Positions 12,950 through 29,338 of a stretch of DNA of 36,132 nt are shown one piece after another; position 1 is the stretch's first letter, and every line of letters begins with the position of its first letter. A program made the translations under genes and the position numbers. Origin of the DNA: Nocardioides sp. (lineage in GTDB: Bacteria; Actinomycetota; Actinomycetes; Propionibacteriales; Nocardioidaceae); contig DOWL01000204.1 of the NCBI GenBank assembly GCA_003519585.1, positions 8,701 through 44,832 on the forward strand, written 5' to 3'. Under the pieces are notes generated by a model. It made no database searches, was not told the DNA's origin, and was given only the letters and a program-made list of their open reading frames with translations.

Positions 12950-12953
12950 GCTC

Positions 12954-13079
12954 GCGTGCTCTGGGGGCGGTGAAATTCCGCGCCGGCGGTCACAGTCCGC
13001 GACCCGGTGGCAGCCAGCCACCGGTTGACCAGGTGAAATTCCTGGACCGACGGTCAAAGTCCGGATGGGAAGTGCACGC
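12954..13079 (+). ncRNA. FMN riboswitch (RFN element)
   Basis: The conserved RFN core is plain: GGCGGTGAAATTCCGCGCC, CACAGTCCGCGACCCGG, CCAGGTGAAATTCCTGGACC and GACGGTCAAAGTCCGGATGG occur in the canonical order. P1 is formed by GCGTGC (12954-12959) and GCACGC (13074-13079). Binding of FMN turns down the riboflavin genes downstream. The expression platform is probably translational (see the hairpin at 13115). Confidence 0.95.
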
Positions 13080-13114
13080 AGGTGTCGTCAGCACCCACGC
13101 GGGTGTCGACGAGC

Positions 13115-18411: not shown

Positions 18412-18874
18412 CCCGACCCGCCCACCCGCGCTGCCCGAGCTGCCGCGCACGTGGCGCCCACTCGGCGCGCGGGTCGTGGGTATCGCGATCTCGGTCTGCC
18501 TCGGCGCGGTCTGTGCGGCCACCTGGCTGACCTTCGACGCCGAGACCCGCGGCCGGTTCACGGTCTTCCAGCGTGGCACGCTGGTCTTCTTCGGGCTGCT
18601 CTTCCTGGTGCTGATGTACGCCTTGATCCGCTCCCGCGCGGTCGCCTACCCCGACCGGCTGGTCGTGGTGAACGGCTACCGGCGCCACGAGTACGAATGG
18701 CCCCAGATCGTGGCCGCCCGCCTCCCGCCGGGAGCACCCTGGGTCACCCTCGACCTCGCCGACGGCGAGACCGCTTCGGTGATGGGCATCCAAGGCTCCG
18801 ACGGAGACCGCGCCCGCTCCGCCCTCCGCGAACTCAAAGCCCTGGTCGCCGCCGCCTCCCCACCCTCCCCGTGA
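18395..18874 (+). CDS. PH domain-like membrane protein
   Basis: A 159-residue protein with two membrane segments (about residues 26-46, GIAISVCLGAVCAATWLTF, and about 57-75, LVFFGLLFLVLMYALI), followed by a small bacterial PH-like domain (AYPDRLVVVNGYRRHEYEWP and WVTLDLADGETASVMGIQ). Its function is unknown. It commonly follows hisG in actinobacteria as far as I recall. ATG 18395 overlaps the end of hisG, which suggests coupling. The stop codon is the first bases of the tandem palindromic repeat. Confidence 0.8.
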   Translation: MPAASDPTRPPALPELPRTWRPLGARVVGIAISVCLGAVCAATWLTFDAETRGRFTVFQRGTLVFFGLLFLVLMYALIRSRAVAYPDRLVVVNGYRRHEYEWPQIVAARLPPGAPWVTLDLADGETASVMGIQGSDGDRARSALRELKALVAAASPPSP

Positions 18875-18963
18875 CCCGTCGTTACTCGTGAGGAGTAACG
18901 ACGGCTCGGCGCAAATTTCGCGGTGACCCGTCGCTACTCGTGACGAGTAACGACGGGTCGGCG
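18871..18963. repeat. Two tandem palindromic 41-nt repeats between convergent genes
   Basis: Unit 1 (18871-18911) and unit 2 (18923-18963) agree at 38 of 41 positions and are separated by 11 nt. Each is a near-perfect hairpin: unit 1 pairs CCGTCGTTACTC with GAGTAACGACGG (12 bp, loop GTGAG); unit 2 pairs GACCCGTCG and TACTC with GAGTA and CGACGGGTC with one internal mismatch. They fill the gap between the PH-like gene (plus) and the aldose epimerase gene (minus). Likely two-way terminators or a protein-binding repeat. Confidence 0.8.
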
Positions 18964-23330: not shown

Positions 23331-23777
23331 GTGCACACGTCCGGGACCAGGTTGCTGGCCGGCGCCGGTGCTCCCGACGACCGCGGCGAGCCCGACCCGG
23401 CGCTGACCGCCGCGCTCTCGGCGTACGGCGCGGACCCGGCCCGGGAGCCCGACGTGCTCGCCGCTCTCGCCGACGCGCGACTGCTGGTGCCGGTCGTGGC
23501 CGAGCTCGGCGAGAGTGAGACGGGGGCGGACGGCCTGGTGCGCGACAAGTCGGCGGACCTGGCGACCGTCCTGATGCGGGGCCGCGACGGCCGGCTCGCG
23601 CTACTGGCCTTCACCGGGCTCGAGGCGCTGCACCGGTGGGACCCGGATGCCCGCCCGGTGCCCGTGCCCGCGCGTACGGCGGCGCTCGCGGCCCTCCAGG
23701 ACGGCGCGGAGGCACTGCTCCTCGACGTGGCCGGCCCAGTGTCGTACGTCGCCGCGGTTTCCACTCCGGCGGAATAG
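23331..23777 (+). CDS. SseB N-terminal domain-like protein
   Basis: A 148-residue soluble protein matching the SseB-family core: an early helix-strand (DVLAALADARLLVPVVAE), a strand pair DLATVLMRGRDGRLALLAFT and ALHRWDPDARPVPVPARTAALAAL, then LLLDVAGP. The name comes from an enhanced-serine-sensitivity gene; biochemical function is unknown. It often precedes infC in actinobacteria as I recall. GTG 23331 is chosen by the TACCGT pattern; a longer frame from 23193 has no support. Confidence 0.75.
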   Translation: MHTSGTRLLAGAGAPDDRGEPDPALTAALSAYGADPAREPDVLAALADARLLVPVVAELGESETGADGLVRDKSADLATVLMRGRDGRLALLAFTGLEALHRWDPDARPVPVPARTAALAALQDGAEALLLDVAGPVSYVAAVSTPAE

Positions 23778-23782
23778 TCCGA

Positions 23783-23788
23783 TACCAT
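23783..23788 (+). promoter_or_regulatory. Possible -10 element of the infC operon (TACCAT)
   Basis: TACCAT just after the SseB-like stop would start transcription near 23795 and give a leader of about 260 nt before infC. No good -35 is seen. Confidence 0.4.
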
Positions 23789-23794
23789 CGGGCG

Positions 23795-24056
23795 TTGACC
23801 GATACGTGCTCTCCGGAGCACGGATCTCAAGCGGATGACAGTGGCCCCCGGGTCGCAGGTCCTCCCACCCGCATCGACCGCCTCAGCAACACCGCAACAA
23901 CACCGCAACAACACAGGTCGTCGGGTCCGGTCCTGGCAGTGGTTGGTTGCTCTGGCGAGCGACGAGCTGACCGCCTGGCCTCCGCTTGCGACGCGGAGGC
24001 CTTCTTGCATTTCTAGAGGGATCCTCCGAGGCCAGTCACCGACAGCAGGAGGACAC
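23795..24056 (+). ncRNA. Structured leader of the infC-rpmI-rplT operon
   Basis: A long untranslated leader. Its first element is a perfect 7-bp hairpin (CGTGCTC 23805-23811, loop TCCG, GAGCACG 23816-23822). A CA-rich unstructured stretch follows (AACACCGCAACAACACCGCA), then an intrinsic terminator at 23977-24015. In other phyla this operon is controlled by L20 or other leader mechanisms; a role in attenuation here is inferred from structure. Confidence 0.55.
23977..24015 (+). terminator. Intrinsic terminator in the infC leader (attenuator candidate)
   Basis: GGCCTCCGC (23977-23985) and GCGGAGGCC (23993-24001) form a perfect 9-bp stem with loop TTGCGAC, followed at once by TTCTTGCATTTCT. This is one of the few hairpins in the window with a T-rich tail. 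It stands 41 nt before the infC start, so read-through must be regulated or partial. Confidence 0.7.
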
Positions 24057-24740
24057 ATCAGCACCGAGCTTCGTATCAACGACCGGATCCGGGTACCCGA
24101 GGTCCGCCTCGTGGGTCCCAACGGCGAGACCGTCGGCATCGTGCCGACGGACCAGGCGCTCAAGCTCGCCCAGGAAGCCGACCTCGACCTCGTCGAGATC
24201 GCGCCGCAGGGCAAGCCCCCGGTCTGCAAGCTCATGGACTACGGGAAGTTCAAGTACGAGAACGCCCAGAAGGCCCGTGAGGCGCGCAGGAACCAGACGA
24301 ACGTGATCATCAAGGAGATGAAGCTTCGTCCCAAGATCGACGCCCACGACTACGAGACCAAGAAGGGCCACGTCGTCCGGTTCCTCAAGGCCGGCGACAA
24401 GGTCAAGATCACCATCATGTTCCGCGGTCGCGAGCAGCACCGTCCCGAGCTCGGGTTCCGGCTGCTGCAGCGGTTGGCGGAGGACGTCACGGAGCTGGGC
24501 TTCGTGGAGTCGGCGCCCAAGCAGGACGGCCGGAACATGATCATGGTGCTCGGCCCGCACAAGAAGAAGGCCGAGGCCAAGGTCGAGCAGAAGGCCGCCA
24601 AGGAGGAGCGCGCCGCCGAGCGCGCCGCCGAGGCCGCAGCAGAGCACGAGGAGCGGGCCGCGGCCCGCGCCGCCGGCCCCGTGGCCCAGAAGAAGGAACG
24701 CGGTCGCTCGGAGAATCTCGACCCCGAGATCGAAGCGTGA
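24057..24740 (+). CDS. infC: Translation initiation factor IF-3, ATC start
   Basis: IF-3 binds the 30S subunit and checks start codon and initiator tRNA. The 227-residue protein carries the N-terminal domain ([19 protein letters not shown]), the linker ([17 protein letters not shown]) and the C-terminal domain ([13 protein letters not shown] [19 protein letters not shown], then [16 protein letters not shown]). A charged Ala/Lys/Glu-rich tail of about 50 residues follows. The likely start is ATC 24057, 4 nt after AGGAGG; no ATG, GTG or TTG lies at the expected position. Known infC genes in other bacteria use rare starts for autoregulation by IF-3, so the same is likely here. Confidence 0.95.
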
Positions 24741-24745
24741 GCCCA

Positions 24746-24840
24746 GCCGTGAGCGAGGAACGAGCTCACGGCGTGCGGGCGAACGGGTCGAGCAAGCGCC
24801 GCGGCTGAGGAACGAAGCCGCGGCAGCGCGTCGAGACACA
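24746..24840 (+). repeat. Twin-hairpin repeat, locus I (loop GAGGAACGA)
   Basis: Two perfect 9-bp hairpins: GCCGTGAGC/GCTCACGGC (24746-24754 and 24764-24772) and GCCGCGGCT/AGCCGCGGC (24798-24806 and 24816-24824). Stems differ, but both loops are GAGGAACGA. The second is flanked by GTCGAGCA before and GTCGAGACA after. The same design recurs on the minus strand at 29172-29319. It lies in the infC-rpmI gap. Confidence 0.8.
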
Positions 24841-24897
24841 CCGCAGCGATCAGCCCGACTCGATCAAGACGACGTAACGCAGCACGAGGAGAGAGAC

Positions 24898-25092
24898 ATG
24901 CCCAAGAACAAGACGCACTCGGGTGCCAGCAAGCGGTTCCGGGTCACCGGGTCCGGCAAGATCCGGCGCCAGAAGGCCGGCCTGCGCCACAACCTGGAGA
25001 AGAAGCCCTCCAAGGTGACGCGCCGGATGTCCGGCACGACCGAGGTCGCCAAGGCCGACGTCAGCCGAGCCAAGAAGCTGCTGGGCCTCTGA
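24898..25092 (+). CDS. rpmI: 50S ribosomal protein bL35
   Basis: A 64-residue basic protein of the large subunit; sequence [20 protein letters not shown] is diagnostic for bL35. GAGGAGAG precedes ATG 24898. It lies between infC and rplT as in most bacteria, with a 157-bp gap before it that holds the twin-hairpin repeat. Confidence 0.98.
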
Positions 25093-25152
25093 GCCTGCCC
25101 TTCTCAGAGACCTCAGCGACACAGCGACCCAGACACAAGGAGCAACGAAGAC

Positions 25153-25545
25153 ATGGCACGCGTCAAGCGGGCAGTGAACGCCCAGAAGAAGCGTAGGACC
25201 ACCCTCGAGCGCGCCAGCGGCTACCGCGGCCAGCGCTCGCGCCTCTACCGCAAGGCGAAGGAGCAGGTCACCCACTCGCTGGTCTACAGCTACAACGACC
25301 GGCGCAAGAACAAGGGCAACTTCCGGCGCCTGTGGATCCAGCGGATCAACGCCGCGGCCCGCGCGCAGGGCATGACCTACAACCGGTTCATCCAGGGCCT
25401 CGGCCTGGCCGGGGTCGAGGTCGACCGCAAGATCCTCGCCGACCTGGCCGTCAACGACATCGCGGCGTTCAACGCGCTGGTCGAGGTCGCCAAGGCCGCC
25501 CTGCCCGAGGACGTCAACGCGCCCAAGGCCGAGGCCTCGGCCTGA
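25153..25545 (+). CDS. rplT: 50S ribosomal protein bL20
   Basis: A 130-residue protein required for early 50S assembly. [39 protein letters not shown] and [19 protein letters not shown] are characteristic. AAGGAG lies 10 nt before ATG 25153. In some bacteria L20 represses its own operon by binding the leader; nothing in this leader clearly mimics its rRNA site. A short tail ([13 protein letters not shown]) extends the usual length of about 117 residues. Confidence 0.98.
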
Positions 25546-25565
25546 CCACTCCTCCGGACCGGTCG

Positions 25566-26339
25566 GTGGACGAGGACGGCGCGCAGCGCCTGTCCCGCAA
25601 CCGCCTGAAGGAGCTGCGTCGACTCAGCCGCCGTTCGGAGCGATCCGAACGGCGGCTGTTCCTCGCCGACGGCCCGAAGGCCGTCGAGGGTGCTCTCGCC
25701 GTCGGCTGTGTGGTCGAGCTCTTCGCCAAGCGCGACACCGAGCTCCCGCCTGGGTCCGACTCCCTCGCCGAGATCACCTGGATCGATGAGCGCGCGCTCG
25801 CATCGCTGAGCGACTCGGTCACCCCGGCCGGCGTCGTCGCGCTGTGCCGGTACGTCGACGTACCCCTCGACCAAGCCCTCGCCGGTGCCCGGCTCGTAGC
25901 GATCTGCGCCGACGTGCGCGACCCAGGCAACGCCGGCACCGTGATCCGCTGCGCCGACGCGGCCGGCGCCGACGCGGTCGTCCTGGCCGGCGACTCCGTC
26001 GACCTCTACAACCCGAAGACCCTGCGGGCCAGCGTCGGCAGCGCGTTCCACCTGCCGATCGCCGTCGAGCGCTCCGCCGCCGCGGCGGTGGCGGCGGCCC
26101 AGGCCGCCGGGCTCACCGTGCTCGCCGCCGACGGCGCCGGTGAGGTCGGGCTGTACGACGCCCCGCTGGCCGGGCCGACGGCGTGGCTGTTCGGCAACGA
26201 GGCCTGGGGGCTGCCCGAGGAGTTGGCGGCACTCGCCGACCACCGGGTCGCCATCCCGATCCACGGCCGCGCCGAGAGCCTCAACCTCTCCACCGCCGCC
26301 GCGCTGTGCCTCTACGAATCGAAACGAACGCAGATGTGA
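25566..26339 (+). CDS. SpoU/TrmH family RNA 2'-O-ribose methyltransferase
   Basis: A 257-residue SPOUT-class methyltransferase that modifies ribose in tRNA or 23S rRNA. The N-terminal substrate-binding domain (ERRLFLADGPKAVEGAL) precedes the knotted domain with motif 1 ICADVRDPGNAGTVIRCADA, motif 2 WLFGNEAWGLPEEL and motif 3 IPIHGRAESLNLSTAAAL. The GTG at 25566 is the likely start; there is no clear ribosome binding site, and the gene begins 20 nt after rplT. A 15-bp perfect hairpin is embedded near the 5' end of the reading frame. Confidence 0.9.
   Translation: MDEDGAQRLSRNRLKELRRLSRRSERSERRLFLADGPKAVEGALAVGCVVELFAKRDTELPPGSDSLAEITWIDERALASLSDSVTPAGVVALCRYVDVPLDQALAGARLVAICADVRDPGNAGTVIRCADAAGADAVVLAGDSVDLYNPKTLRASVGSAFHLPIAVERSAAAAVAAAQAAGLTVLAADGAGEVGLYDAPLAGPTAWLFGNEAWGLPEELAALADHRVAIPIHGRAESLNLSTAAALCLYESKRTQM
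25625..25658 (+). terminator. 15-bp perfect hairpin with GCGA loop inside the methyltransferase gene
   Basis: Arms CAGCCGCCGTTCGGA (25625-25639) and TCCGAACGGCGGCTG (25644-25658) are exact reverse complements around a GNRA-type tetraloop, followed by TTCCTC. It lies 80 nt after the rplT stop but inside the coding frame. It may partly terminate the infC-rpmI-rplT transcript, or stabilise a processed 3' end. Confidence 0.65.
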
Positions 26340-26394
26340 CGCACGTGACGCCCGGTCGACGCTGAAGGGAATGCCCGAGCGGCTTCGCAAGCCA

Positions 26395-26557
26395 GGAGGG
26401 AGCGCAGCGACCCGGTCTTTCGCGGCGGAGCCGCGCGCCCGGTGATCGGCCTCGATGGCCGTGGCGACAGTGCCGAGTGAGCGTCAGCGAGCGAAGGCAC
26501 CGGCGAGCGCAGCGAGCGTCGCCGCGGACTCGGGGCCGAAACTCGCCGGGGTATTCA
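26395..26557 (-). repeat. Dispersed element of about 163 bp, copy C (reverse)
   Basis: Reverse orientation relative to copy B. The start module (26533-26557) reads TTGAATACCCCGGCGAGTTT on the minus strand; the far module (26395-26440) matches 12785-12830 at 45 of 46 positions. The middle is rich in CGCTCGCTG-like steps. No protein is encoded. The full gap between the methyltransferase and EAL-HDOD genes is 26340-26781. Confidence 0.75.
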
Positions 26558-29171: not shown

Positions 29172-29319
29172 GGTCGAGCCTGTCGAGACCACTGCAGCGC
29201 GTGTTGGGACCCGCCCTCGCGGAGATCTCGACACGCTCGGATGCGACCTCGTCCCTCGGTCGCGCTCGCTGCTCGATCACCGATGATCTGGTTCCGCTCG
29301 TTCCTCGCGGTCCCAGATC
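29172..29319 (-). repeat. Twin-hairpin repeat, locus II (reverse) with REP-like palindrome
   Basis: Read on the minus strand: the first hairpin pairs GATCTGG and CCGC with GCGG and CCAGATC (29285-29319, 2x2 internal mismatch), loop GAGGAACGA; then a spacer with ATCGAGCA; then GCGACC/GGTCGC (29243-29263), loop GAGGGACGA; then GTGTCGAGATC. A palindromic GGTCTCGACAGGCTCGACC follows (29190-29172). It matches locus I in order and in the conserved parts. Confidence 0.8.
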
Positions 29320-29338
29320 CTGCACAGAACCTTCACGA

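Follow-up and report, generated by a model that had tools for sequence, protein, structure and literature searches.

A dispersed two-hairpin repeat with structured tips at gene ends in Nocardioides and near kin

Introduction

Between infC and rpmI in a 36,132-nt stretch of Nocardioides DNA, here called the window, lie two adjacent hairpins with different stems and one common loop. What keeps a loop while the stem around it changes, and is the fold there for a repeat that spreads or for the host that carries it? The original prediction took the pair for two separate members of a dispersed hairpin family with selection on their shape, a fixed loop and a changing stem, and thought of a REP-like element moved by a RAYT transposase or of an RNA-protein binding site.

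Results

Both hairpins are found as predicted (Table 1), with 9 of 9 Watson-Crick pairs in each inner stem, and Pfam confirms the neighbours as infC (IF3_N, IF3_C) and rpmI (Ribosomal_L35p). The words GTCGAGCA and GTCGAGACA around the second hairpin are the two strands of its outer helix, GTC pairing with GAC. The infC stop codon stands at -8 from stem 1 (-11 is the commonest distance in other copies), and in the RNAfold prediction its U is paired with A while its GA is left facing GA; the stop codon may join the fold as a U-A pair and a tandem G.A with positions 24781-24783. At the other end of infC, at about 24057 in the window, the expected start lacks an ATG, and the in-frame ATC ahead of AGCACCGAG may be the start codon. 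The window holds two copies of the composite, the second being antisense to both of its neighbours, and at that site the unaligned gap between the histidine kinase and response regulator genes is 220 nt in the window against 61 nt in the relative G061, which is 159 nt shorter.

Table 1. Features of the two composite copies, in positions of the window
Feature	Position	Strand	Evidence
Whole two-hairpin composite (~112 nt)	24735..24846	+	Model R1 92.4 bits, cmsearch E 8.8e-22; fold and alignment
infC stop codon TGA, at the foot of hairpin 1	24738..24740	+	Sequence
Hairpin 1, outer helix, 5' strand GCCC (partner GGGC 24777-24780)	24741..24744	+	Helix 1 of the counted structure; RNAfold
Hairpin 1, inner stem of 9 bp, 24746-24754 GCCGTGAGC / 24764-24772 GCTCACGGC, tip 24755-24763 GAGGAACGA	24746..24772	+	Sequence, alignment
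Linker, with GGGC 24777-24780 (3' strand of the outer helix of hairpin 1) and conserved GAGCAAGC 24790-24797	24773..24797	+	Alignment A1
Hairpin 2 with outer helix, GTC 24787-24789 / GAC 24835-24837, tandem G.A 24790-24791 / 24833-24834	24787..24837	+	Alignment
Hairpin 2, inner stem 24798-24806 GCCGCGGCT / 24816-24824 AGCCGCGGC, tip 24807-24815 GAGGAACGA	24798..24824	+	Sequence
Second composite copy, flanked by genes for a histidine kinase and a response regulator and antisense to each	29216..29326	-	R1 61.1 bits, E 1.4e-13; Pfam

Chance or a compositional artefact has some things in its favour when the window is taken alone. A high GC content makes hairpins common, the fold of the 165-nt region is modestly better than that of shuffled sequences (z = -2.0, equalled by 4 of 200 shuffles), and the loop word GAGGAACGA is on its own not enriched, with 11 matches at no more than one mismatch against 10.2 +/- 3.1 in shuffled sequence, where 42 of 100 shuffles reach 11. 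It is the recurrence across genomes, rather than the window fold or the loop word, that exceeds chance. The 61-position composite pattern (at most 3 mismatches) matches 90 of the 215 genomes in the Nocardioides genus group of L008 and G007, and the reversed pattern matches none of them; this control and the slid and shuffled ones given below refute chance, to which we assign practically no probability. The family is thus dispersed, as had been predicted. A 15-nt stem-loop pattern matches 75 of the 215 genomes (2 control matches), and the covariance model R1, which has the infC-rpmI copy of the window among its own training sequences, matches 164 of them at E<=1e-3, 17 candidates having been scored in each genome. 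When 150 candidates were scored in each of eight chosen genomes, seven gave 22-44 hits with R1 and G007 gave 0. In G007 (Nocardioides nematodiphilus; L081, L084-L091) the pattern finds 9 hairpins with the same tip, GAGC-GAGGAACGA-GCTC, set in different surrounding sequence.

In a class-wide sample R1 matches 22 of 394 genomes at E<=1e-4, and 7 of these are outside the 215. Five of the 29 genomes reached through named loci are positive at E<=0.01, namely Nocardioides L005 and L002 and, weakly, Aeromicrobium L013 and L014 and Propionibacteriaceae L017; the other 24, including Streptomyces, Kribbella, Amycolatopsis, Pedococcus and Nocardioides L001, gave no match. Model searches of loci used chosen sets of 36, 44 and 64 sources. 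The closest infC relatives are Nocardioides and other Nocardioidaceae (L001-L011, 84-90% identity), and the infC-rpmI spacers of 19 relatives that were inspected have no GAGGAACGA hairpin. The window copy is without a match in the phage and plasmid collections, and Rfam has none near the element at the gathering threshold and only Ms_IGR-4 below it (E 4.1, opposite strand, outside the element). No paper in the open-licence PMC literature, mostly judged from listings, was recognised as describing the element. Elsewhere in the window there is an FMN riboswitch (12952-13081, plus strand, 94.7 bits), and two 46-nt palindromic repeats with GAGTAACGA arms, 89% alike and 52 nt apart (18866-18963), which look like a separate family.

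The two hairpins both exist but are not separate: they are halves of a single composite of about 105-125 nt. Copies in other genomes carry both, at the same spacing as in the window (52 nt from loop to loop) and with a conserved linker. We collected 112 distinct copies, among the matches listed, from the loci of the 15-nt pattern, the loci and fetched matches of the 61-position pattern, and the window. The right-hand anchor is missing in 6 of the 112. Alignment A1 holds 109 copies, leaving out L146, which has 3 mismatches, and two members of the tandem trio in L150. Since GAGCAAGC and the tip were both in the search pattern, their conservation in A1 is partly by construction. The structure in which pairs were counted was set by us and has 32 pairs in five helices. 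In A1, 86.7% of its cells are paired, against 67.8% in shuffled and 28-45% in slid controls, of which the slid ones keep the kinship among copies and the shuffled ones lose it. Double compensatory changes are present in 29 of the 32 pairs, and the covariation score is 0.489 against 0.164 when shuffled. RNAalifold, unaided, found 22 pairs, 19 of them with double changes. The inner stem of hairpin 1 is paired in 93.8% of cells with compensatory change at 9 of 9 pairs, helices 3 and 5 of hairpin 2 are paired in 94.5% and 94.2%, and the outer helix of hairpin 1 is the weakest (70.6%). Hairpin 1 is fully paired in 54 of 109 copies, and 93 of 109 have all 6 bp in the core of hairpin 2.

Another comparison is that between the window and G061, which has a copy at the same infC site. 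They differ in 12 of 113 columns, and eight of these are four pairs that have changed on both sides and are still paired, while the other counted pairs are identical. Among copies at related genes and equal offset, both sides had changed with pairing kept 337 times and broken 50 times, and one side had changed with pairing kept 102 times and broken 179 times; these are pairwise counts and the events are not independent. The further copies in relatives thus have stems that mostly keep pairing, and the predicted selection on the hairpin shape is borne out to the extent that the element tends to hold its folded shape while the letters change, which looks like a shape under selection.

The fixed loop of the prediction is supported as a fixed tip and needs correction in one respect: what was read as a 9-nt loop is a structured tip. 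With GAGGNACGA as the training set of a model, 68 matches were obtained, in which we counted 103 tips, taking a tip only if it had GA at both its beginning and its end and closed at least 4 pairs. Ninety of these are GNA tips, in which the third and seventh bases covary (G-C in 82, C-G in 8, broken in none), and the remaining 13 are 10 of a GAGCYYGCGA type and 3 others. In the pattern-based A1, 2 of 109 hairpin-1 tips are broken (G/G). The tip fits tandem sheared G.A pairs followed by a closing pair and a GNA triloop, a geometry predicted from the letters. The base of hairpin 2 has the same G.A / A.G tandem in 107 of 109 copies; the search pattern covered its 5' side and not its 3' side. At a different place CC/GG (43 copies) alternates with GA/GA (33), the remaining 33 copies being mixed. 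A CsrA site was considered because of the GGA in the loop and was set aside: 31 of 112 hairpin-1 tips have C, G or T in the middle, and CsrA is expected to be absent from these bacteria. Sites of the attC kind were set aside on the orientation of attC core sites.

Mismatches hint at which strand folds. In hairpin 1 they are G.T 51 times and A.C 6 times, where arms taken from different copies give 9.0% and 5.9%. At the 21 well-paired positions the numbers are 69 and 17, and at positions 4-9 of hairpin 2 they are 6 and 2; over all positions of hairpin 2 they are 8 and 110, with the outer two or three positions out of register. An excess of G.T over A.C in hairpin 1 is expected if the sense strand folds, and together with the gene-sense orientation described below it favours a structure of the sense strand; as far as this goes, the RNA-protein binding site that had also been predicted may be present. 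The excess also bears on the idea that there is no selection at all and that template switching, in the form of quasipalindrome correction, keeps the arms matched. The many double changes among copies at related genes are what such a process would give, but it predicts neither the G.T excess nor the alternation of CC/GG with GA/GA, the conserved tip, the linker or the orientation. We consider covariation by this route quite improbable; template switching is unlikely as the sole cause, and may be a contributor.

The element is tied to the ends of genes. In 98 of 112 copies the interval -60..+10 relative to stem 1 contains the end of a same-strand coding-like frame, which had to have at least 60 codons and was recognised by the GC of its codon positions. 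An antisense gene end lies near in 20 of 112; at shifted control places, not all of which could be tested, the sense count is 17 of 671 and the antisense count 50. The 14 other copies have no detected sense gene end nearby. The commonest position of the stop is exactly 11 nt before stem 1 (37 of the 98 copies), and the stop is TGA in 86 of 98. The same picture was obtained in G165, which has no match to the composite pattern, where 17 of 20 tested model hits (of 44) have a sense gene end and 2 of 20 an antisense one. The 112 copies are not independent, because many sites are common to several genomes: the genes upstream of the 98 copies form 42 clusters, among them ones of 15 and 12, and such shared sites are compatible with old insertions as well as with repeated ones. 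The next coding-like frame downstream is on the same strand in 52 of 111 copies and convergent in 59, so not every site is intercistronic, and where the nearest downstream frame is convergent there is no coupling at stake. In two of the five tail-to-tail pairs of elements that were tested (L285, L352) each element stands behind the stop of its own gene, and in the other three an own-gene stop was found for one element only.

Such a position would suit a 3'-end RNA element useful to the host, be it for protection of the transcript end, as a processing site or as a site for an RNA-binding protein, whose dispersal is old. The sense orientation and the closeness to stop codons, the numbers of same-strand and convergent neighbours, and the tail-to-tail pairs behind their own stops are all in line with this. 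It agrees less well with identical junctions that are patchily occupied, with tandem arrays as in L150, with the 51 of 215 genomes that have no R1 match among the 17 candidates scored in each, and with the place of the element between infC and rpmI, at which termination would be expected to do harm. Of sigma-70 promoter-like sites there are none in the region 23500-26500, and its three terminator-like sites are all outside the element. We give a host role of this kind a minor but real share of the probability.

The occupied and empty junctions are those of two genes. At the end of a carboxyltransferase gene (Carboxyl_trans), followed by what its motif suggests is a biotin carboxylase gene, 4 of 30 orthologues have an R1 match (L252, L253, L259, L278) and 10 have a clean overlapping stop and start with TGATC and 20 nt to the motif. 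In the remaining 16 the spacing is different, pieces of the element are present, or the parse was wrong. RTGATCA flanks the element on both sides at this junction; it lengthens the junction by 125 nt in L253 and L259, where the word on both sides is ATGATCA, and L262 has kept a piece of its left end. In the cluster of copies at this gene, an open frame joins both overlaps in 11 of 15, with 41-44 codons in ten and 62 in one. At the LON_substr_bdg junction (n=14) three are occupied, one has a remnant, nine are empty and one was not parsed; the empty ones have 7-25 nt from stop to start by eye, and L327 and L329 are nearly identical.

These features are weaker when all copies are considered. The flanking word shared by the two sides has a mean of 4.65 nt over 74 copies against 4.27 in shuffled pairings (200 shuffles, maximum 4.54), and direct repeats of 6-9 nt, some of which are tandem copies or chance, are present at 18 of 74. 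Duplication of the target, a feature of MITEs, is therefore seen at some sites and not generally. An overlap with a downstream frame of at least 60 codons at the end of the element occurs in 14 of 77 copies. The four bases at the upstream stop are CTGA in 47 of 98 and ATGA, GTGA or TTGA, which overlap a start, in 39 of 98; with CTGA the commonest, an overlapping start is not the rule. Conservation of a codon frame is not supported as a general property: of the 112 copies, 35, 54 and 80 are open in the three frames, and shuffled sequences give 50-54%.

Discussion

The explanation that we find most rational, and think probably correct, is a mobile repeat of gene ends in Nocardioides and near kin, built from two hairpins that each carry a structured tip, in part similar to MIRUs and with a selected structure in RNA (or single-stranded DNA). 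The folded shape that is kept while the letters change makes it look like a mobile element with its structure under selection. It would spread by insertion at or beside stop codons, where insertion would do little harm because the upstream stop and the downstream start survive. It would then be transcribed together with the gene and fold on the sense strand, and the folded form, as RNA or less likely as single-stranded DNA, may be recognised by a trans-acting factor, for copying or for protection. At one overlapping junction, that of the carboxyltransferase gene, the element supplies a frame that stays open between the two stop/start overlaps. There are points against a mobile gene-end repeat: clear direct repeats are confined to some sites, the coupling frame does not hold for copies in general, stems are imperfect, and the second copy in the window is antisense to both neighbours. 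No mobilising enzyme for it was found.

DNA mini-hairpins with GNA loops are described as exceptionally stable (PMC4686876). The tips resemble the d(GCGAAGC) type in holding G-N-A closed by G-C or C-G, and differ in the tandem G.A positions that come after the closing pair.

MIRUs, the mycobacterial interspersed repetitive units, are among the closest known systems. They are described as mobile repeats that insert at start codons and whose internal frame is coupled at -4 nt (PMC12548453, PMC2734929, PMC4213456), and also as present between senX3 and regX3 (PMC4213456), a site that can be compared with the histidine kinase and response regulator pair around the second window copy. The present element shares with them that it is a short actinobacterial repeat at dozens of places, at gene ends and sometimes in tandem. 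The parts of these sources at hand do not, however, present MIRUs as pairs of hairpins whose stems show compensatory change, and most copies of our element are away from coupled junctions, an internal frame that keeps the overlap being a matter of the carboxyltransferase junction much more than of the copies overall. MIRUs reportedly, following Supply et al. in 1997, prefer DTGA sites. At coupled junctions the element seems to act like a MIRU, the likeness meant here being one of behaviour.

The BOX, RUP and SPRITE repeats of streptococci are presented as modular and MITE-like with strong RNA secondary structure, and 36 BOX supply the stop codon of a gene; mobilisation of BOX was proposed from terminal repeats that resemble those of an IS (PMC3049150). 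As far as these descriptions go, our element likewise carries RNA structure and stop codons, but the bacteria are different and no fixed gene-sense orientation is named for BOX in the parts of that source at hand.

REP, REPIN and BIME sequences are, like the present repeat, small dispersed extragenic palindromes in which dimers are frequent, and the short, dispersed, extragenic palindromes are a point in favour of mobilisation by a RAYT, an IS200-type Y1 transposase. In most REP/RAYT classes a RAYT goes together with a GT[AG]G (or CGTC) tag, and some subclasses lack the guide (PMC6006769, PMC3733652). There is a partial resemblance to such a guide in the GAGTAG, which holds GTAG, before the stem of some variant second hairpins. 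At the feet of the window hairpins there is no GT[AG]G, the stems being preceded by CCCA and AAGC, and the strong gene-sense orientation does not fit either. The search for a RAYT gene also speaks against it: the Y1_Tnp domain (PF01797) was found in 1 of the 215 genomes, against the 164 that carry the element, and the search was positive in 5 of 14 control genomes. The one match is L121 (G130). A REP element moved by a RAYT, the mobility that had been predicted, is accordingly very improbable.

Within mobility, one could go further than a MIRU-like repeat and hypothesize a new class of mobile element targeted to stop codons. Translation termination or the folded transcript would guide the insertion, and an enzyme other than a Y1 transposase would recognise the two hairpins with their tandem G.A and GNA tips as RNA (or single-stranded DNA), place the element in the sense direction and restore coupling at coupled junctions. 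We regard this as rather unlikely, if worth stating.

Conclusions

Some genomes of the Nocardioides group carry dozens of copies of a structured repeat that is tied to the ends of genes, and for the copy in the window there is no curated RNA family. Taken together, position, strand and covariation allow a sharp test of the way in which small repeats of bacteria come to select stop codons, and of whether the fold is there for the element or for the host.
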